7,864 nt of DNA from Acidobacteriota bacterium (GTDB taxonomy: Bacteria > Acidobacteriota > Terriglobia > UBA7540). The stretch is taken from NCBI GenBank assembly GCA_021780055.1, contig JAJXZM010000136.1:1-7864 (forward strand), given 5' to 3'. Below, piece after piece: positions 1 to 7,864 of the stretch. Each line of letters begins with the position of its first letter. Position 1 is the first letter of the stretch. The notes below the pieces were generated by a model that was given only the letters and a program-made list of their open reading frames with translations, had not been told where the DNA came from and searched no databases. Both the position numbers and the translations under genes were made by a program.

Positions 1-2
1 CG

Positions 3-62
3 GAGTTACTGCGAATGGTCAGCGAGCTTGCTGCGGAAGACCCGATTGGGATTTCATCTTAA
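3..62 (+). CDS. C-terminal tail of an unidentified upstream protein (5' truncated)
   Basis: One frame is open from the window edge to a TAA at 60-62 and encodes 19 residues ending LAAEDPIGISS. The tail is too short to assign to a family. It is taken as the end of a real gene because it lies just upstream of, and on the same strand as, the ACP gene, with a 50-nt gap that carries the ACP ribosome-binding site. If real, it is probably the preceding member of the same operon. The other frames across these 62 bases cannot be excluded. Confidence 0.45.
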   Translation, partial: ELLRMVSELAAEDPIGISS

Positions 63-101
63 GACGGACAGGGTCAAGGCAAAGAAACAGGACCGGTCAG
101 T

Positions 102-107
102 AAGGAG
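102..107 (+). promoter_or_regulatory. Shine-Dalgarno site of the ACP gene
   Basis: AAGGAG lies 5 nt before the ATG at 113. It is the strongest ribosome-binding site in the window and fixes the ACP start. Strong initiation fits an ACP, which is usually needed in excess over its partner enzymes. Confidence 0.8.
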
Positions 108-112
108 TAAAG

Positions 113-403
113 ATGGATGTAGGTGAGAAAGTCATTGAAATTATTGCACGGGAACAGCATCTCGACCCCAGTAACGTATCGATCGACGCGACGTTTGAGG
201 AACTTGGGATCGATTCCCTGGATGGAGTCAACATCCTGTTTGCGCTTGAAGAAGAGTTCAAGATCGATATTCCCGATACTGTGGCCCAGAACATGAAAAG
301 CGTAAGGCAGGTTGTGGACAGTCTTACTCGGGTGATTGAAGGTAAAGACATTTCTGATCTCGCGGCGATGGCCAAGGGCAGCGGCCCGTCGGCCAGAAAC
401 TAG
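113..403 (+). CDS. Acyl carrier protein
   Basis: This 96-residue acidic protein carries growing acyl chains on a 4'-phosphopantetheine arm. The attachment serine is Ser35 in the motif GIDSLDG (residues 32-38), at the start of helix II, followed by the acidic recognition helix and the FKIDIPD segment (about 49-55) typical of fatty-acid and type II polyketide ACPs. It is longer than housekeeping AcpP (about 78 residues) because of a C-terminal Ala/Gly/Ser-rich tail after about residue 80. Start ATG 113 has an AAGGAG site 5 nt upstream. It ends 17 nt before the ketosynthase gene, so the two are probably co-transcribed and work as a pair. The pairing and the tail suggest a dedicated pathway ACP rather than the primary fatty-acid AcpP; this is an inference. 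The acyl substrate cannot be told from the sequence. Confidence 0.95.
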   Translation: MDVGEKVIEIIAREQHLDPSNVSIDATFEELGIDSLDGVNILFALEEEFKIDIPDTVAQNMKSVRQVVDSLTRVIEGKDISDLAAMAKGSGPSARN

Positions 404-420
404 TCTTCCTGGAGTCCACG

Positions 421-1650
421 GTGCGCAGGGTCGTCATAACAGGGCTGGGGGTTTTCTCCTCCACGGGCAAGAACAGGGAATGCTTTTTTGAGAGCCTGGT
501 GCAAGGCCGGTCAGGCGTTCGGCCTATTACTCAATTCGATTCATCCTCTCTTTCCATTCGCATTGCAGCCGAAGTCGCCGACTACAATCCGGACGACTAC
601 TTTCCAGCCAAGCGCCAGGACATGCTGGACAAATTTACGCAGTTTGCGCTGATTGCTGCCGGCGAGGCGATGGAAAGCAGCGGCATCACGGTTCGTGATG
701 AAGAGCGCCCCCGTTTTGGGGTGGTGATGGGTTCCGGCATGGGCGGTGCGGGAAGCTATGACGCTGGCTATCACAATCTCTACGCCAAGCAGCTCACGCG
801 CCTGCATCCCTTTACCATTCCGCGCATCATGCACAACGCGGCCACGTCGCACATCTGCATGGAGTTTGGCGCGCAGGGTCCCGCGCTTGCCACGGCAACG
901 GCCTGCTCGTCGTCGGGCCACGCAATTTCGGAGGCCTTCCACCTTATCAAGTTCGGGCTGACGGATATAATGCTGGCTGGCGGAGCCGACGCTCCCATCA
1001 CCTACGGCGTGATGCGCTGCTGGGAGGCGGTGCGCGTTCTCGCTTCCGGGAATGGCAACCCTGCCACGGCCTGCCGTCCTTTTTCCGCAGACCGAAAGGG
1101 GATGGTGATTGGCGAAGGGTCGGGAGTTCTGTTACTGGAGGAGCTGGAACACGCTCTCAAGCGCGGCGCTACCATTTACGGTGAGCTTGCCGGCTGCGGC
1201 ATGAGCTCAGACGCCTCCCACATCACCCAGCCATCGGTGGACGGCCCGGTCCGCGCCATTCGCATGGCGCTTGATGAAGCCGGTGTTCCGCCCGAAGAGA
1301 TTGATTACATTAATGCACACGGAACCGGAACGCGACTGAATGACGCCACCGAAACCCAGGTGATCAAGGAAGTTTTCAAGGACCATGCCAGGAAGCTGGC
1401 GGTCAGCTCCACGAAATCGATGCACGGCCATGCGATGGGAGCAACCGGCGCGATCGAGTTTGTGGCCACGGTGCTGGCGGTCAAGCGCGGCGTGATTCCA
1501 CCCACCGCCAACTACACGGAACAGGATCCCGAATGCGACCTTGACTATGTTCCCAACGAGGCGCGGGAAAAGCCCATACGGGCTGCACTTTCGAATTCCT
1601 TTGCGTTTGGAGGCTTGAACGCCGTGCTGCTGGTTCGACGCTGGAATTGA
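421..1650 (+). CDS. Beta-ketoacyl-ACP synthase, FabF/NodE-like (KAS II family)
   Basis: This 409-residue decarboxylating Claisen condensing enzyme would join an acyl primer to malonyl-ACP. All catalytic residues of the thiolase fold are present: nucleophile Cys162 (TATACSSSGHA), His300 (YINAHGTGT), Lys332 (TKSMHGH) and His337. Length matches FabF (about 410). It is therefore predicted to be active, not a chain-length-factor-like inactive partner. The C-terminal gating loop reads NSFAFGGLN (393-400), where E. coli FabF has GFGGTN. Ala395 and Leu399 replace a Gly and a Thr, which may change chain-length or ACP selectivity. The start is GTG 421, with GGAG at 411-414, and the protein begins directly with the beta-strand RRVVITGLG. 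It lies 17 nt after the ACP gene. The housekeeping fabF remains possible, but the downstream glycosyltransferase, ligase and aminotransferase genes argue for a specialised pathway. Confidence 0.93.
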   Translation: MRRVVITGLGVFSSTGKNRECFFESLVQGRSGVRPITQFDSSSLSIRIAAEVADYNPDDYFPAKRQDMLDKFTQFALIAAGEAMESSGITVRDEERPRFGVVMGSGMGGAGSYDAGYHNLYAKQLTRLHPFTIPRIMHNAATSHICMEFGAQGPALATATACSSSGHAISEAFHLIKFGLTDIMLAGGADAPITYGVMRCWEAVRVLASGNGNPATACRPFSADRKGMVIGEGSGVLLLEELEHALKRGATIYGELAGCGMSSDASHITQPSVDGPVRAIRMALDEAGVPPEEIDYINAHGTGTRLNDATETQVIKEVFKDHARKLAVSSTKSMHGHAMGATGAIEFVATVLAVKRGVIPPTANYTEQDPECDLDYVPNEAREKPIRAALSNSFAFGGLNAVLLVRRWN

Positions 1651-1706
1651 GATTCTCATTTTTCCGCGGCGACGCGGTTCGGAAGCAGGGTACTATCGGA
1701 GCAGGC

Positions 1707-2894
1707 ATGGAAATCAAGCGAATCGCTATCCTGACGCTCGGTGTGGGGGCTGGGCATTCGCGGGCAAGCCAGGCTATTCATCAGGCCCTTCACGATGGCG
1801 CGGACAATGTTGAGGCCCGCACGATCGATGTGCTGGATCTCGCGGAGCCCTGGTTCCTTCGCTTCTACCTCTATCCTTATTGGCTGACGGTAAAACGCGT
1901 TCCCTGGGTCCGGCGCAAGTTCTTCGAATGGCGGCAACGAAAGCGTCTGCGGAGGATGGCCCCGGACTGGCTTTTCCGGCGCGGCTGCCGGTCCGTCCTT
2001 GCCCGCCTGAAGTCTTTCCGTCCGCATCTGGTGATTGTAACGGAGGCATGCGCTGCGAGGCTGGCTGCCATGGGACGGCGAGACGGCTGGTTTGACGCTC
2101 CAATCCTGGCTGCGCAGACGGACTTCTGCACGGAACCCGTCTGGGTCAGGGACGAAATCGACTTACATTGCGTGGGCAGCGAAGAAGCTAAGAGTCAGAT
2201 GATATCCTGGGGGGTTTCGGCGAATCGTGTCCTCTATTGCGGTGTGCCGGTAGATCCCTCCTTTGCGCTCAGTTTCGACCGCTCTGAGCTCCGACGGGCC
2301 CTTGCCTTGCATCCGAACCGGCCCGTGGTGCTGGTGATGGGCGGCGGGATGGGCCGCGCCCCGCTTGATGTCATCATTCAGAGCCTGGAAGTGTGCCGCC
2401 ATCCCATCCAGGTGATTGCCGTTGCCGGAAGAAATCGTATGCTTCGTGAGCAGTTGGAATTGTTGCGGGGGAAACTGGCCCTCGACCTTCACGTTTTTGG
2501 CTGGACGGAGTCTGTGCCGGAACTGATGGGCGCGGCCGACCTGCTGGTTACCAAGCCGGGCGGCGTTACTGCCTCTGAAGCCCTGGCTGCGGGCACCCCT
2601 ATGATTCTTACGTCTCCGGTGCCTGGGATGGAGGAAGACCACCTGAGGTTTCTGGTCAACCAGGGCGTTGGGTTGGCAGCCAAAGAGCTGCGGCAGATTC
2701 CCGGGCTGGTGTCCGGCCTGCTCGATGATCCCAAGCGCCGGGAGGAGTTGAGTTCGCGCGCCCGCGAACTGGCGCGGCCTGACGCCGCCTATGCGGTGGC
2801 CCAGGTGGCAAGGGCCCTGCTAGAAAAGGCTACGTACATCGATCTGCTTGCGGCGCCTTCGCCGGCCTCGGGTGAAACGGCATACCTGATGTAG
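1707..2894 (+). CDS. MGDG-synthase-like glycosyltransferase (GT28 type, GT-B fold)
   Basis: This 395-residue enzyme would transfer a sugar from a nucleotide-sugar donor, in this family usually to a diacylglycerol or other membrane lipid at the cytoplasmic face. The N-terminal acceptor domain opens with IAILTLGVGAGHSRAS (6-21), matching the GxGH signature of MGDG_synth proteins. The C-terminal donor domain has VLVMGGGMGR (208-217) and TKPGGVTASEALAAGTPMI (282-300), followed by PVPGMEED (304-311), as in plant MGDG synthases and Bacillus UgtP. I see no signal peptide or transmembrane helix; the basic, aromatic stretch at about 49-90 could be a peripheral membrane contact. The frame is open back to TTG 1647, but ATG 1707 is preferred: GGAG lies 5 nt before it and the conserved strand starts there. 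It follows the ketosynthase by 56 nt. Donor sugar and acceptor are unknown. A MurG-type role is less likely given the MGDG-type motifs. Confidence 0.88.
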   Translation: MEIKRIAILTLGVGAGHSRASQAIHQALHDGADNVEARTIDVLDLAEPWFLRFYLYPYWLTVKRVPWVRRKFFEWRQRKRLRRMAPDWLFRRGCRSVLARLKSFRPHLVIVTEACAARLAAMGRRDGWFDAPILAAQTDFCTEPVWVRDEIDLHCVGSEEAKSQMISWGVSANRVLYCGVPVDPSFALSFDRSELRRALALHPNRPVVLVMGGGMGRAPLDVIIQSLEVCRHPIQVIAVAGRNRMLREQLELLRGKLALDLHVFGWTESVPELMGAADLLVTKPGGVTASEALAAGTPMILTSPVPGMEEDHLRFLVNQGVGLAAKELRQIPGLVSGLLDDPKRREELSSRARELARPDAAYAVAQVARALLEKATYIDLLAAPSPASGETAYLM

Positions 2895-3028
2895 ACTGAC
2901 GGGTGCTTCAGGATCTTAGGCATGAACGGTAAAGGGTGCTCGGTTCCGAGAGCGACTCCTGAATAACACAATTCGGCAGCTCTGACGTCGCACGCTGACG
3001 CTTACAGCCGCCCTTTTTTTGACATCGC
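2895..3028. other. 134-nt intergenic gap between glycosyltransferase and ligase genes
   Basis: No gene is seen here. A short palindrome CTCGGTTCCGAG (2939-2950) and a run of seven T at 3014-3020 stand out. A 4-bp stem (GCTG 2994-2997 with CAGC 3005-3008) precedes the T-run but is too weak to call a terminator. The gap could mark a boundary between two transcription units, but no convincing promoter is visible. Confidence 0.4.
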
Positions 3029-4345
3029 ATGGTTGCTGACCTACGGAAGATCGTTGAACGCCGGGTGATTGGCGACTCGATACCCCGGCTTGTGCGCTGG
3101 GGCAAATCGCTTTCACCCTCACTGATCCACCGGATCCAGATGGATGGTTTCCGGCGGGTTGTCCGCTATGCGGCTGCCCACCAGAAGTTCTTTGCGCGCA
3201 AGCTTCAGGAAGCCGGCCTCCGCGCGGAACAGATCCGCCGGCCTGAGGACCTCGGAGAAATTTTCACCACGCCCGAAGACATTCGAAATCTTCCGGCGGA
3301 GGAATTCCTTTGCCGGGAACCCGAGTCTGTGTTTGAAACCACCGGCACTTCCGGCGGGCCAAAGCGGGTCTTCTTCAGCTACGATGAGCTCGACTTCTCG
3401 GCACGTTACGAGGCGGCGGCCTTTTATGAAAACGGCATGCGGCCAGGCGACCGCGTGGTTTGCACCTTTGACGCCGGATACTGGATCAGCAGTTGGGTGA
3501 CGTTTCTGGCCTGCAAGCAACTGGGGGTTTTCTGCTCGGCCGTGGGAAAGCCGCACCCAGCGGAAGTTTATGACCGCCTGGGGCGTTATCACTACAACGT
3601 GATTGTGGCGGACCCAACCTGGCTGGTGAGCCTGAGCGAAATTGCCGAAAAGCAGGGTCGTATTCCGGTCAAGCTGATCTTTGCCGCGGGTGACCGCATG
3701 ACCGACGCCTACCGCGACTACGTCCAGCGTATTTGGAACGCTCCGGTGATTCTCGGCTATGGCTCGACAGAGATGGGCGGCGGCGCCGGAATGGAATGTC
3801 TTGAGCGCAATGGCTACCACGTGGATGAGTACAACCTGCTCTTTGAAATTCTCGATCCCGATCCGGACGGCTACGGTGAACTGGTGGTGACCACTCTATC
3901 GCGCCGGACCACGCCGCTGATCCGCTACCGCGTGCGGGACATCACACGTTTTCTCGAAGGGCCCTGCCCATGCGGTACCACCGTGCGTCGCCTGGCGCGA
4001 ATTCGCGGACGCCGCGACGAGATGGTGGTGATGGGCGCCGGCAACATGTACCCGGAGATCTTTGAAAAGGTGTTGTCCGACGTTGCGGGGCTTTCGAGTA
4101 ACTGGCAAGTGGCGGTCCGGCAGGAGGACCTGCACGACATTCTGGAATTCCGGCTGGAACTGTCGAATGGAGTTTCCAATGCAGCCGTTGAAGACGCGGT
4201 CCGGAAGAACCTTGAGGCGCGCTATCCGGATGTCTGGGCTAATCAGGCGTGCGGGATGTACAGGCTGGCTTTCCGTTTTTGCCCCCCGGGGACGCTCGTC
4301 CAAGGGCGAAAGCGCAAACGCCTTGTGGACGAGCGCGGGGAGTAG
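3029..4345 (+). CDS. PaaK-like AMP-forming acyl ligase (phenylacetate-CoA ligase / CapK family)
   Basis: This 438-residue adenylate-forming enzyme activates a carboxylic acid with ATP and would pass it to CoA or a carrier thiol. Motifs in order: P-loop-like A3 TTGTSGGPK (104-112); A5 YGSTEMGGG (244-252); A7 region TTPLIRYRVRDIT (294-306) with Asp304; CPCG (313-316), a common PaaK-family feature; hinge A8 IRGRRDEMVVMGAGNMYP (325-342); and a C-terminal Lys-rich A10 segment RKRKRLVDE (427-435) with candidate catalytic lysines 428 and 430. Length fits PaaK (about 430-440), and motifs are intact, so it should be active. ATG 3029 is the first start after an in-frame TGA (3020-3022), but it lacks a visible Shine-Dalgarno site; GTG 3065 is an alternative. 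The acid substrate (aromatic, fatty or other) cannot be inferred, and the family name should not be read as phenylacetate degradation: no other paa gene is present. Confidence 0.88.
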   Translation: MVADLRKIVERRVIGDSIPRLVRWGKSLSPSLIHRIQMDGFRRVVRYAAAHQKFFARKLQEAGLRAEQIRRPEDLGEIFTTPEDIRNLPAEEFLCREPESVFETTGTSGGPKRVFFSYDELDFSARYEAAAFYENGMRPGDRVVCTFDAGYWISSWVTFLACKQLGVFCSAVGKPHPAEVYDRLGRYHYNVIVADPTWLVSLSEIAEKQGRIPVKLIFAAGDRMTDAYRDYVQRIWNAPVILGYGSTEMGGGAGMECLERNGYHVDEYNLLFEILDPDPDGYGELVVTTLSRRTTPLIRYRVRDITRFLEGPCPCGTTVRRLARIRGRRDEMVVMGAGNMYPEIFEKVLSDVAGLSSNWQVAVRQEDLHDILEFRLELSNGVSNAAVEDAVRKNLEARYPDVWANQACGMYRLAFRFCPPGTLVQGRKRKRLVDERGE

Positions 4346-4454
4346 GGTGGGTTTCAGAAAATAGGCAGCGCGTAGGGCTTGCAGGAGGGGGTGATTTCCT
4401 TACTGCCTACCATCTGACCCTCTGCCTGACCTATCGGTTTGAAGGGAGAATGAC
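4346..4454. promoter_or_regulatory. 109-nt leader before the phosphatase with an inverted repeat and an orphan AGGAGG
   Basis: TAGGCAG (4362-4368) is matched by its exact complement CTGCCTA (4403-4409), which would enclose a 34-nt loop. Inside the loop lies AGGAGG (4383-4388), with a GTG only 2 nt further on that opens an 8-codon frame ending at TGA 4415-4417. The annotated downstream gene uses another site, AGGGAG at 4443-4448. No protein of substance is encoded here. The leader could be a structured 5' region, but this is weakly supported. Confidence 0.3.
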
Positions 4455-5201
4455 TTGAGCGGAAAATTGCCGGGAAACGGCCAGGTCGGGAAATCGGTCC
4501 AGAAACCGGTCGTCTTTTCGGACTTTGACGGCACGATTACGCGCCTTGACGTGACCGATGAAATCCTGGAGCATTTCGCCGATCCTTCCTGGCACGAAGT
4601 GGAAGATCAATGGCTCCGTGCAGAGATCGGTTCAAAGGAATGCTTTGAGCGTCAGGCGGCGCTGGTGCGGGCCACCGTCAAGCAATTGAACGAATTGATT
4701 GACGCCATCCCTCTCGATCCTGATTTCCCCGTATTTTTCCGCTTCCTGAAGGCACAGCAACTGCCTTTCTACATTGTCAGTGACAGTTTTGATTACGTTA
4801 TCCGCCGGGTCCTTAAGCGCGTGGGCGCAGACGGCGAATTGCGGAACGGCCGCCATCTGTTTTCAACCGGGCTGGAATTTGAAGCGGGAGGGTTTCGGGC
4901 GACTTTCCCTCACAGCGACCACGGCTGCAACCATGGTTGTGCCACCTGTAAGCCGGCGATCATTCGCAAGCTGAGAAAAAAACAGCAACCGGTTATCTTT
5001 ATCGGCGACGGACTTTCAGACCGTTTTGCAGTGGAAGAGGCAGACGTGGTTTTTGCCAAGCACGAGTTGCTGGCCTATTGCCGAGAGCACGGCGTGGCGT
5101 GCCGGCCGTTTGAGACTTTTGATGACGTACAGAAGGAGATGGCCGAAATGATCGAAACCGGCTCCTTCTCTTGTGATGCCGCGGTGAGTGCTGCGCCGTA
5201 G
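4455..5201 (+). CDS. MtnX-like HAD-superfamily phosphatase
   Basis: This 248-residue HAD subfamily IB phosphohydrolase resembles MtnX (the enolase-phosphate phosphatase of methionine salvage) and more distantly SerB. Motif I is FSDFDGTIT (21-29) with nucleophile Asp23 and acid/base Asp25; motif II is YIVSDSFD (106-113); Lys166 or Lys172 can serve as motif III; motif IV is GDGLSD (184-189). A Cys/His-rich insertion with His153, His156, Cys158, His160, Cys162 and Cys165 recalls the cysteine segment of MtnX proteins and may bind metal. TTG 4455 is the start: a TGA at 4440-4442 closes the frame upstream, AGGGAG lies 6 nt before it, and no ATG occurs before the catalytic Asp23. The next possible start is TTG 4467. 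No methionine-salvage genes are nearby and the aminotransferase begins 6 nt after its stop, so the substrate is more likely a phosphorylated intermediate of the local pathway. Confidence 0.88.
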   Translation: MSGKLPGNGQVGKSVQKPVVFSDFDGTITRLDVTDEILEHFADPSWHEVEDQWLRAEIGSKECFERQAALVRATVKQLNELIDAIPLDPDFPVFFRFLKAQQLPFYIVSDSFDYVIRRVLKRVGADGELRNGRHLFSTGLEFEAGGFRATFPHSDHGCNHGCATCKPAIIRKLRKKQQPVIFIGDGLSDRFAVEEADVVFAKHELLAYCREHGVACRPFETFDDVQKEMAEMIETGSFSCDAAVSAAP

Positions 5202-5207
5202 CATGGA

Positions 5208-6635
5208 ATGAACGATCTTACGAGGGCGAAGGGAAAAGGGTTCATGTCATTGCCGGATACCACAACCAAAGCTGCCGAATTAATGGATCTCGAACGCCGG
5301 TACTGCTCCTACGGCGACACGGTGCACTATCTTGAGCCGCCCAAGGTTTTTTCCAACTGTGAAGGCTGCTACCTTTACGATGAGCAGGGCACTCCGTATC
5401 TCGACCTTCAGATGTGGTATTCCGCGGCGAACTTCGGTTACAAGAATCCCCGCCTGAATGAAGCCCTGAAGCGGCAGGTGGACCGGTTGCCCCAGCTGGC
5501 TTGCCAGTATCTGCACCCGGAAAAGGTTGAGGTGGCGGCGCGCATTTCGCAATACTGCGAAAAGCGGTTCGGCGTTAAAGGCCGCGTCCACTTCAATGTG
5601 GGCGGCTCGCAGGCCATCGAAGATTCGCTCAAGCTGGTGCGCAACGCAACCGGCCGGAACCTGATGTTTGCCTTCATGGGTAGTTATCACGGGCGGACGC
5701 TGGGTGCGTCGGCCATGACTTCCAGCTACCGCTATCGCCGCCGGTTTGGCCACTTCAGCGATCGCGCGCAGTTTGTTTTTTATCCTTATTGCCACCGCTG
5801 CATTTACGGGCTGAAGCCGGATTCGTGCAACCTCTATTGCGAGCAGCAGTTTGAGAAACTGTTTGATTCGGAATACTACGGCGTATGGGACGCCAAGGCC
5901 GAAGTCTCGGAATTCGGAGCTTTCTACATTGAGGCAGTGCAGGGAACGGGCGGCTACATCATCCCGCCCGCCGACTATTTCAAGCTGTTGAAAGAAACCT
6001 GCGACAAACACAAGATCCTGATCGTCGATGACGAAATCCAGATGGGCTTTTATCGCACGGGCAAGTTCTGGGCGATTGAAAATTTTGGCATCACGCCGGA
6101 CATCATTGTGTTTGGGAAGGCGCTGACCAACGGCCTGAACCCGATTTCGGGTGTCTGGGCGCGCGAAGAGCTGATCTCGCCGGAAATGTTTCCTCCCGGT
6201 TCGACTCACTCCACGTTTTCCGCCAATCCGCTGGGCACGGCCGTTGCTCTCGAAACGCTGAAGATGCTGGAAGAAGATGATTACGAAACCATGGTGAATG
6301 AGAAAGGCGCATACATGCTGGCCGGGCTGCGCGAACTTGCGCGGCGACATCCGGAGTCGATTGGCGACGTGGCCGGACTGGGACTTGCGTTGCGCATTGA
6401 AGTCTGCAAACCGGATGGCATCACTCCCGATCGCGAATTGACGGACCGCATCTTCGCTGAGGGCCTTGCCGGCAACCTGCAAGCCGGCGGCCGCAAAATG
6501 GGCCTGGTGCTTGATGTGGGCGGATATTATAAGAACGTCTTTACGCTTGCGCCGTCCTTCACGATCACGCGCGAAGAAATGGACCTCTCGATCGAACTGC
6601 TCGACCAGTTGTTTGCCCGCTGCGCGAAGAAATAG
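5208..6635 (+). CDS. Class III PLP-dependent aminotransferase with a four-cysteine motif
   Basis: This 475-residue fold-type I aminotransferase belongs to the group of GABA, ornithine and other omega-amine transaminases and would interconvert a terminal amine and an aldehyde or ketone. PLP-site features: GGSQAIEDSLKLVR (132-145; Gln135 where many relatives have Glu), GSYHGRTLG (158-166), VDDEIQMGFYRTG (273-285) with ring-binding Asp275, and Schiff-base Lys304 in VFGKALTNG, followed by HSTFSANPLG (334-343). An insertion carries Cys195, Cys198, Cys207 and Cys211 (CX2C-X8-CX3C). Mammalian GABA transaminase has an iron-sulfur cluster bound by a CX2C pair, so a metal or Fe-S site is possible. The protein looks complete. 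ATG 5208, 6 nt after the phosphatase stop, has no clear ribosome-binding site; ATG 5244 (Met13), preceded by purine-rich GAAGGGAAAAGGG, is a serious alternative and would keep all motifs. The substrate is unknown; the tight coupling suggests it acts next to the phosphatase. Confidence 0.92.
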   Translation: MNDLTRAKGKGFMSLPDTTTKAAELMDLERRYCSYGDTVHYLEPPKVFSNCEGCYLYDEQGTPYLDLQMWYSAANFGYKNPRLNEALKRQVDRLPQLACQYLHPEKVEVAARISQYCEKRFGVKGRVHFNVGGSQAIEDSLKLVRNATGRNLMFAFMGSYHGRTLGASAMTSSYRYRRRFGHFSDRAQFVFYPYCHRCIYGLKPDSCNLYCEQQFEKLFDSEYYGVWDAKAEVSEFGAFYIEAVQGTGGYIIPPADYFKLLKETCDKHKILIVDDEIQMGFYRTGKFWAIENFGITPDIIVFGKALTNGLNPISGVWAREELISPEMFPPGSTHSTFSANPLGTAVALETLKMLEEDDYETMVNEKGAYMLAGLRELARRHPESIGDVAGLGLALRIEVCKPDGITPDRELTDRIFAEGLAGNLQAGGRKMGLVLDVGGYYKNVFTLAPSFTITREEMDLSIELLDQLFARCAKK

Positions 6636-6652
6636 CGGGGAACCATGCATGT

Positions 6653-6677
6653 AGAGACGCCTCGCGGAGGCGTCTCT
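6653..6677. repeat. Perfect inverted repeat, possible terminator or REP-like hairpin
   Basis: AGAGACGCCTC (6653-6663) and GAGGCGTCTCT (6667-6677) are exact complements around a GCG loop, giving an 11-bp stem. Two wobble pairs and one T-A pair can extend it outward. It begins 17 nt after the aminotransferase stop, a typical terminator position, but no T-run follows on the + strand, so it is not a classical intrinsic terminator. It could instead stabilise the mRNA end or be one copy of a dispersed repeat. Confidence 0.75.
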
Positions 6678-6758
6678 GTAATCTCCGCAGGCTCTGCAAC
6701 CCCGCTTACCGTTTCAATCCTGCGGGCTGTTTCCACTGTTGCAAGTGTTACCGGGTTT

Positions 6759-6824
6759 CTCTGTGCCCTCTGTGTCTCCAAATATTTCCCACGGAGATCA
6801 TAGCGCGCCACTGTCTCCTCTGTG
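6759..6824. repeat. CTCTGTG heptamer cluster
   Basis: CTCTGTG occurs at 6759-6765, 6768-6774 and 6818-6824. The first two copies sit in a C/T/G-rich run, spaced 9 nt start to start. The pattern resembles low-complexity, CTCTGTG-rich intergenic sequence that I recall from many environmental bacterial genomes; that resemblance is from memory and was not searched. Confidence 0.45.
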
Positions 6825-6886
6825 TTGAGCTCTTTTCAGCACTGTAGCGCTTTAAGAAGCAAGCATTCCAGCAGAACCTGCCGGCA

Positions 6887-6908
6887 ACAACCATGAATTT
6901 CATGTTGT
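6887..6908. repeat. Palindrome upstream of the exported-protein gene
   Basis: CATGAA (6892-6897) and TTCATG (6899-6904) are complements around a single T. If C6891 is bulged out, ACAA (6887-6890) pairs with TTGT (6905-6908), giving ten pairs in all. It lies 80 nt before the TTG start at 6989. An operator for a dimeric regulator fits better than an RNA hairpin, since a one-base loop cannot form without melting inner pairs. Confidence 0.35.
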
Positions 6909-6978
6909 CCATTTAATCTGACGATTCACCTCGTTCGCAGAGCACGGGCCGCGCCAGAATCTGAAAGCCCGCGCCGCC

Positions 6979-6984
6979 GAGGGA
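6979..6984 (+). promoter_or_regulatory. Shine-Dalgarno site selecting a TTG start
   Basis: GAGGGA lies 4 nt before the TTG at 6989. It decides the start of the exported protein, because the first in-frame ATG (7079) would fall inside the hydrophobic signal segment and cut it off. Confidence 0.6.
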
Positions 6985-6988
6985 ACCT

Positions 6989-7864
6989 TTGAACCATAAC
7001 GGGGCTTTATCTGGCTGGAACAGGTGTTACGGGTGGGTTGCAATCATCTGGACCTCTGCCAGCATCGTGCTGCTGTTGATGACTGTGGGGACGCTGGCCG
7101 CGGGAGCAGAGACGAATCCAAAGGCGGTGGGCCGGGCAAAGGCAAATTACGTTTCGTTGCCGCTTGCCTTTGAGCAGAACTGTGGGCAGACAAACTCCGC
7201 GGTGAAATTTCTGGCGCGCGGAAATGGTTACGCGATTTTCCTTACTGAAGACCAGGCGGTGATGTCGCTGGAACGGAGCACCGCGGGCTCGCGCATTCCG
7301 TTTTCATCCGCAGGGAATGTTGGCCGCCCTACCAAAACCCGTAAGGTTCGAAAAGATGTCTTGCGCCTGCGGTGGGTGGGTGCGAGCGCCAATCCGCGCA
7401 TCGAAGGGCTGGCCATAGAGGCTGGCAAAAGCAACTACCTGACCGGGAACAACCCGGCGAAGTGGGTGCGCAACGTTCCCTCATACTCCAGAGTGGAATA
7501 CCACGGCATTTATCCCGGCGTTGATCTCGTCTACTACGGCAATCAGCGGAAACTTGAGTTTGATATCGACGTAGCTGCGGGAAGGGGCGTGCGTTCCATT
7601 CGGCTGGAGATTTCCGGCCGGAACCATCATGCTCCCGGACTCCGCGTCAATTCGCGTGGCGAACTGGTGGTGCGCACACGCGCCGGCGACGTGCGGTTCA
7701 AGAAGCCGGTTGCGTATCAACCCAGCGGGGTCTCTGCGCAAGGTAAACATTTCCTTGCAGTCCACTACGTGGTGGAGAACGGAGGCCGGGTGAGCTTTGA
7801 GGTGAGCGGGCGAGACCCATCGAAGCCTGTGGTCATTGACCCGGTGCTGACTTACTCCACTTAC
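6989..7864 (+). CDS. Exported DUF7948 / SBBP beta-propeller family protein (3' truncated)
   Basis: The first 292 residues of a large secreted protein are visible. The N-terminus has Arg12, a hydrophobic core at about 17-33 (VAIIWTSASIVLLLMTV), and a possible signal-peptidase site near AAGA-E (38-41). The DUF7948-type domain follows, with LAFEQNCGQTNSAVKFLARG (59-78), YLTGNNPAKW (150-159), IYPGVDLVYYGN (174-185) and the closing VIDPVLTYSTY (282-292), which normally leads into SBBP/NHL-like beta-propeller repeats. Here the repeats would lie beyond the window. Such proteins are surface-exposed or secreted and common in Acidobacteriota; their functions are mostly unknown. TTG 6989 is preferred because it gives a full signal peptide and has GAGGGA upstream; the frame is closed by TGA at 6962-6964. 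The gene is 353 nt from the aminotransferase and is probably not part of the biosynthetic unit. Confidence 0.88.
   Translation, partial: MNHNGALSGWNRCYGWVAIIWTSASIVLLLMTVGTLAAGAETNPKAVGRAKANYVSLPLAFEQNCGQTNSAVKFLARGNGYAIFLTEDQAVMSLERSTAGSRIPFSSAGNVGRPTKTRKVRKDVLRLRWVGASANPRIEGLAIEAGKSNYLTGNNPAKWVRNVPSYSRVEYHGIYPGVDLVYYGNQRKLEFDIDVAAGRGVRSIRLEISGRNHHAPGLRVNSRGELVVRTRAGDVRFKKPVAYQPSGVSAQGKHFLAVHYVVENGGRVSFEVSGRDPSKPVVIDPVLTYSTY

Follow-up and report, generated by a model that had tools for sequence, protein, structure and literature searches.

The 7,864-nucleotide stretch of Acidobacteriota DNA analysed here (contig JAJXZM010000136.1, positions 1 to 7,864 of the forward strand; hereafter the window) carries most of a seven-gene cassette that is a functional unit. 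The cassette encodes a single-domain response regulator (REC), an acyl carrier protein (ACP), a ketosynthase (KAS), a glycosyltransferase (GT), an adenylate-forming ligase, a HAD phosphatase (HAD) and a class III pyridoxal 5'-phosphate (PLP) enzyme annotated as aminotransferase (AT). Each part can be assigned to a known enzyme family, and their joint pathway would be new as far as the literature was searched. Our preferred, still tentative, interpretation is that the product of the cassette is a cell-envelope glycolipid carrying an amine.

A ligase profile alone retrieved 37 loci (ligase identity 65-96%, closest 96%), all titled Acidobacteria, Acidobacteriota or Terriglobia, which supports the acidobacterial origin of the window. 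Neighbouring genes were followed outward from the ligase by tblastn, and a gene was counted only if at least 300 bp of contig were left. The order REC-ACP-KAS-GT-ligase-HAD-AT was conserved with all genes on the ligase strand, and where the contig reached, GT was found in 35/35 loci, KAS in 32/33, ACP in 31/31, REC in 30/31, and both HAD and AT in 32/32. All seven genes were visible in 25 of the 37 loci, and REC adjoined ACP in 30 of 31. Since the loci had been gathered with the ligase profile alone, the retained gene order implies that the cassette is not a product of chance. Beyond the seven genes, each neighbouring open reading frame (ORF) family was common to at most 12 of 41 sequences (40 loci and the window). 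Common descent alone, preserving the proximity of ordinary genes whose functions are unrelated, would agree with the confinement of all 37 loci to Acidobacteriota. However, the surroundings vary while the seven genes stay, and the same modules are re-assorted in other lineages and phyla, which makes this explanation very improbable.

The sequence-only reading of this DNA had described six complete co-directional genes, which were borne out as six plus-strand ORFs in the order and at the coordinates listed below. It had attributed them to one joint pathway and advised checking neighbourhood conservation across Acidobacteriota; this check was run, and with homologues co-located rather than scattered in the gene walk, and their order kept almost wherever contigs reach, the attribution is now well supported. 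It had remarked that it knew no named pathway with exactly this set; literature searches by gene set and by description had no matching pathway among the papers listed. It had also supposed that ketoreductase, dehydratase and thioesterase steps might come from upstream genes. No ketoreductase, dehydratase or thioesterase was among the shared upstream genes that were identified, whose products are the response regulator, a deacetylase, a sensor kinase/NtrC pair and a radical SAM protein (non-shared neighbours were not scanned).

Features of the window belonging to the cassette, with family evidence
Feature	Position	Strand	Evidence
REC tail, single-domain response regulator, last 19 codons and stop	3..62	+	frame 3, ELLRMVSELAAEDPIGISS*
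Acyl carrier protein (ACP)	113..403	+	PF00550 2.2e-13, 50.7 bits vs cut-off 20.8
Ketosynthase (KAS), NodE-like branch	421..1650	+	FabF-type, TIGR03150 519 bits vs cut-off 494
GT28, MGDG-synthase/UgtP-like glycosyltransferase	1647..2894	+	PF06925 5.3e-18, MGDG_synth 66 bits vs cut-off 25
PaaK-like adenylate-forming ligase	3029..4345	+	AMP-binding PF00501 and AMP-binding_C_2 PF14535
MtnX-like HAD-IB phosphatase	4455..5201	+	TIGR01489 112 bits vs cut-off 82
Class III PLP 'aminotransferase' (AT), Thr247/Thr446 instead of Glu/Arg switch	5208..6635	+	Aminotran_3 PF00202 1.4e-77, 261 bits vs cut-off 30.5

Glu211 and Arg398 of GabT, which we take to be the carboxylate switch, align with Thr247 and Thr446 of AT. 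The pattern R163-T247-D275-K304-T446 was present in all 38 fully covered loci (41 matched, three of them partially), including those of a second cluster type described below, and in 119 of 120 homologues among the matches listed, the remaining one having Ser247. The PLP lysine Lys304 was found in 40/40 loci covering this position, with the PF00202 domain present. As controls served 29 of 53 class III matches from nine genomes, L115 being left out as itself a member of the AT family. At the Arg398 position these had 22 Arg, 3 Tyr, 2 Phe, 1 Lys, 1 gap and no Thr, while Thr occurred at the Glu211 position in two. In a tree covering 11 of the 37 cassette loci, the AT family formed a single clade on a long branch (3.31, support 100/100). 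Thr at both switch positions therefore makes ordinary Glu-dependent transamination doubtful. Accordingly, family calls that had been termed firm hold for the fold, but it is less firm that the amine is installed by a class III aminotransferase of the ordinary kind.

The class III enzyme might instead be a PLP lyase or another catalyst whose substrate is a phosphorylated amine from a pool that HAD also uses. Both Thr replacements, the second of them without parallel in the controls, and the long branch of the family point in this direction, as does PbfA, the one useful precedent from a literature search on the arginine switch. It was annotated as a transaminase and shown to be a lyase, and thus exemplifies a lyase concealed behind such an annotation (accessible part of PMC8154272). 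Nevertheless, the reaction cannot be read off from residue differences, Arg163 in the YHGRT motif is retained, two controls share Thr at the Glu211 position, and a donor could bind otherwise. We consider a lyase or other catalyst of this kind unlikely. AT scored 231 bits against the PbfA model (cut-off 525), and its AlphaFold model was poor, with a predicted local distance difference test value (pLDDT) of 51 and a predicted template modelling score (pTM) of 0.52.

AT is 61-65% identical to proteins encoded on Rhizobium, Agrobacterium and Xanthomonas plasmids, where the gene also lies beside HAD. These plasmid operons (L001, L002, L003, L068 and L069) combine HAD and the class III enzyme with arginase-like, FemAB-like and EamA genes, joined by a hydrolase gene in Rhizobium and Agrobacterium and by KAS, ACP and DegT genes in Xanthomonas; some also hold a desaturase and a cyclopropane synthase. 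This second cluster type, perhaps a lipid pathway, was not found described in a literature search. It also occurs with KAS in two Acidobacteriota genomes, G264 and G052, ACP being seen in G264. HAD adjoined AT in each of the 32 cassette loci where the contig reached that far, as well as in L001-L003, L055, L056, L063, L068 and L069. KAS was not seen in the Rhizobium and Agrobacterium operons, and a FabF-family match was absent from plasmids W01, W03 and W06, W02 having one remote nodE-like copy. ORF maps throughout had a minimum of 70 to 100 amino acids, so short ACP or EamA genes may escape them. As HAD and AT recur across both cluster types, we infer that they travel as one pair, and KAS and ACP as another.

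This separation bears on a further scheme, in which the cassette works as a free-standing (type II) module for beta-amino fatty acids: the ligase would load ACP, KAS would form the beta-ketoacyl-ACP, AT would aminate the beta-carbon, and the beta-amino acid would be built into a glycolipid. Co-encoded ligase, ACP, KAS and class III aminotransferase match the four activities proposed for puwainaphycin and iturin assembly (accessible part of PMC4219810), and with no ketoreductase among the conserved genes the beta-keto intermediate would be free for amination. However, the link of AT to HAD is closer than that to KAS and ACP, as the Rhizobium and Agrobacterium operons and the FabF-free plasmids illustrate. 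FabF-family matches were likewise absent from the contig of a variant cluster in genome G085, described below, on which an ACP under 80 amino acids could escape detection. Moreover, the scheme has no role for the phosphatase. Because AT follows HAD, not KAS and ACP, across clusters, we rank the beta-amino module second, as a possibility of rather low probability.

The cassette KAS fell, together with the KAS of the second cluster type, NodE and two further ACP-linked KAS, into one clade (support 99/95) apart from housekeeping FabF, although it exceeds the TIGR03150 cut-off. The tree contrasted 23 clade rows with 13 others, including E. coli FabF and housekeeping FabF from the same genomes; the cassette genomes G001, G003 and G006 each encode another, higher-scoring FabF. 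The joint clade was supported by 99/96 in the second tree and by 88/95 in the first, which lacked NodE. These trees cover 13 of the 37 cassette loci with few outgroups; six long or chain-length-factor-like rows were left out of the second and third, and L066_1363 also out of the third. Four rows carry the label nodE; only that of L141 is backed by annotated nodABC genes next to it, and the remaining three were labelled by inference. The ACP-KAS order is that of L141, where the pair adjoins nodABC.

Upstream of the cassette, a NodB-like deacetylase gene was found in 13 of the 37 loci and a radical SAM gene likewise in 13, contigs often stopping earlier. With NodFE-like ACP and KAS, this deacetylase and a glycosyltransferase, the cassette might produce a Nod-factor-like lipo-aminosugar that serves as a secreted signal instead of a lipid of the membrane. 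The NodE clade, the ACP-KAS order and the 150 bits of the deacetylase against the NodB model are in its favour. Yet this score lies under the NodB cut-off of 240 and is equalled against a peptidoglycan deacetylase model, the glycosyltransferase is of GT28 type, and domain scans, which covered the window proteins and not the other cassette loci, detected no NodA or NodC family member. In addition, related ACP-KAS pairs in Paracoccus and G052 stand without nod genes in the stretches read, and we judge a Nod-like signal improbable. The Paracoccus pair (L144:5603-7209) lies beside an LpxD-like acyltransferase gene; the G052 pair is at L096:9807-11263.

Co-occurrence was surveyed in 297 Acidobacteriota genomes drawn around G001, the centre, which was chosen rather than drawn, with 5 to 7 candidates scored per genome and cut-offs of E 1e-50 for the ligase, 1e-140 for AT and 1e-60 for the radical SAM protein. 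The ligase was found in 9 genomes, AT in 5 and the radical SAM protein in 2, both of which were also AT-positive (about 2e-4 by chance). Of ten cassette genomes, eight encode the radical SAM protein; its gene in G007, G008 and G010 lies on a contig other than that of the cassette. A defence role of the radical SAM protein was not accepted; viperin models matched it at 5e-20 over the SAM core.

Variant clusters in G085 and G096 comprise genes for a radical SAM protein, an ABC transporter, two GT28 enzymes, a deacetylase, HAD, AT, ligase, DegT and a second radical SAM protein. Identities are 52-56% for the radical SAM protein, 42% for HAD, 70-73% for AT and 39-41% for the ligase. The G096 cluster additionally encodes KAS together with another ketosynthase, ACP, a pair of FabA-like proteins, a nitroreductase and a protein resembling thioester reductases. 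Pfam checks were made for G085 and the G096 ABC genes were read by eye, not all genes being Pfam-checked in both. In a genome-wide search with GT, the two best matches in either genome were the GT pairs within these clusters, and no match at E 1e-10 was obtained in G052 and G264, the genomes with the other cluster type.

The phosphatase stays below the MtnX equivalog TIGR03333 (126 bits, cut-off 303) and reaches the broader TIGR01489. Its predicted model was good, and a fold search returned MtnX first, followed by phosphoserine phosphatases. HAD residues 158-166 (window 4926-4952) form a conserved Cys/His stretch, CxHGCATCK, in which C162, A163, T164, C165 and K166 are invariant in 25/25 sequences and which is possibly a metal site. 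The ligase profile matched the PaaK structure 4r1l at 8.6e-47, while the PaaK equivalog TIGR02155 was not reached (125 bits, cut-off 646). Six of the nine ligase-positive survey genomes lacked AT at its cut-off. Pfam-scanned neighbours of ligase relatives (about 42% identity) were DegT, a Gfo/Idh/MocA oxidoreductase and a patatin in G211 (L052), DegT and a Zn-dehydrogenase in G084 (L050), and an inositol-phosphate synthase in G225 (L054); similar layouts were recognised by eye in G297, G179 and G138. As ligase relatives without a class III AT adjoin DegT aminotransferases (L050, L052), the ligase family recurs beside amine-making steps. The clusters in L050, L052 and L054, and also in L051, L053 and L057, resemble aminocyclitol-like sets.

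From gene order, co-occurrence, families, catalytic residues and the ancestry of KAS and AT, we infer a scheme for the reactions, their order, substrates, product and cellular location. The PaaK-like ligase would convert a carboxylic acid via acyl-AMP into a thioester with the dedicated ACP or CoA, and the NodE-like ketosynthase would use the cassette ACP for a dedicated chain extension, in which housekeeping fatty acid synthesis supplies the reductive steps. HAD and AT would share one intermediate, onto which the PLP enzyme places an amine and from which the phosphatase takes off a phosphate, to yield an amino (head-)group, and the GT28 enzyme would transfer a sugar onto the lipid. Where present, the NodB-like deacetylase may unmask the amine of a sugar, and the product may be modified by the radical SAM enzyme.

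Several observations weigh against the amine-bearing glycolipid, beginning with the two threonines of AT and the restriction of deacetylase and radical SAM genes to 13 loci each. G001, the closest genome, and G002, both metagenome-assembled genomes, lack the radical SAM gene. The glycosylated product was deduced from GT28 resemblance only, and GT reaches neither the MurG nor the UgtP equivalog cut-off (180 bits against the UgtP/YpfP diglucosyl-diacylglycerol synthase equivalog NF010135, cut-off 500). Among the seven conserved genes there is no transporter, N-acyltransferase or acyl-transfer gene. Furthermore, L026 has no KAS in the 562 bp upstream of GT, L018 has no REC, and the HAD-ligase distance extends to 1.5 kb in L021. 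HAD lies 4 kb from AT in L064 and occurs without AT in a 14.7 kb stretch of Bartonella (L070); on the Roseomonas mucosa plasmid L067, a HAD relative is near a divergent class III gene (L067:5245-6587) annotated as two overlapping coding sequences. A glycosylated amino-lipid, as first suggested, is still the best product class, helped by the variant clusters with GT28, deacetylase and ABC-2 exporter, its chemistry being conjectural throughout; a short acyl-derived amine, the other early suggestion, gained no support.

Within the window, the GT gene probably starts at ATG 1707 rather than TTG 1647, and most AT homologues among the matches listed start at residue 13 of the window protein (about 5244). 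The catalytic residues to be expected were found in ACP (phosphopantetheine Ser, found in 34/34 loci with a match), KAS (Cys162, His300, Lys332, His337), HAD (DxDGT) and AT (Lys304). The whole REC gene is represented in the closest locus by L004:3030-3419, which contains Response_reg PF00072 and whose end corresponds to window 3-62. Window 6989-7864 is the 5' part of a DUF7948 gene running past the window end, which was not counted in the cassette because genes 3' of AT differ in other loci; in L004, L005, L032 and L035 one family of long genes (1265-1391 amino acids) lies downstream of AT. An Rfam scan of the window gave nothing at the gathering score, promoter and terminator scans stayed at or below chance level, and PADLOC matched none of the five window proteins scanned (ACP not included). 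The cispentacin families AmcB and AmcF were rejected, their matches to window proteins staying below cut-off.

Acidobacteriota are abundant in soil, and to our knowledge their envelope lipids are poorly linked to genes. The fixed seven-gene order, the NodFE-like acyl pair and the odd PLP enzyme provide a concrete handle on one unknown lipid, while the shared HAD-AT module makes the rhizobial plasmid operons a tractable test system. NodE, known from Nod factor synthesis, is thereby linked to a wider set of specialised ketosynthases. More speculatively, a PLP family without the carboxylate switch, which almost always has an MtnX-like phosphatase as its partner, could perform a new, non-glutamate amine-forming reaction on a phosphorylated intermediate, at the heart of two unrecognised lipid pathways, one glycosylated in Acidobacteriota and one with EamA and FemAB on Rhizobium, Agrobacterium and Xanthomonas plasmids; we hold this to be possible, with more doubt than confidence.

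Compared with known systems, the cassette shares with NodF/NodE a dedicated ACP followed by a ketosynthase of the NodE clade and, in part of its loci, the NodB-like deacetylase of Nod factor synthesis, whereas GT28 stands in the window in place of NodA/NodC families, with ligase, HAD and class III enzyme in addition; the accessible text of one Nod factor paper swaps the usual NodE and NodF roles (PMC5080398). Iturin and puwainaphycin starter modules likewise unite acyl-AMP ligase, ACP, ketosynthase and class III aminotransferase, with a 3-amino acyl chain as the proposed outcome and, in puwainaphycin, a separate ACP (accessible part of PMC4219810). Those belong to polyketide synthase/non-ribosomal peptide synthetase (NRPS) assembly lines, whereas the cassette stands alone and includes GT28 and HAD, the window having no NRPS. 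Ornithine-type aminolipids are also amine-bearing lipids fed by ACP-bound chains, but their known routes use OlsB/OlsA-type acyltransferases, and the accessible main text of PMC11631085 does not contain the word 'aminotransferase'; the window has no OlsB-type PF13444 or PlsC-type PF01553 domain (other loci were not scanned for them). PbfA and ethanolamine-phosphate phospho-lyase share the class III fold and are not transaminases (accessible part of PMC8154272), whereas AT remains below the PbfA cut-off and phosphonate genes are absent from the window. The HAD-AT plasmid operons differ in having EamA pairs and FemAB-like transferases instead of a cassette-type ligase, GT28 and radical SAM protein, and have in common with the cassette the same AT family, with the R-T-D-K-T residues kept, beside the same kind of HAD.

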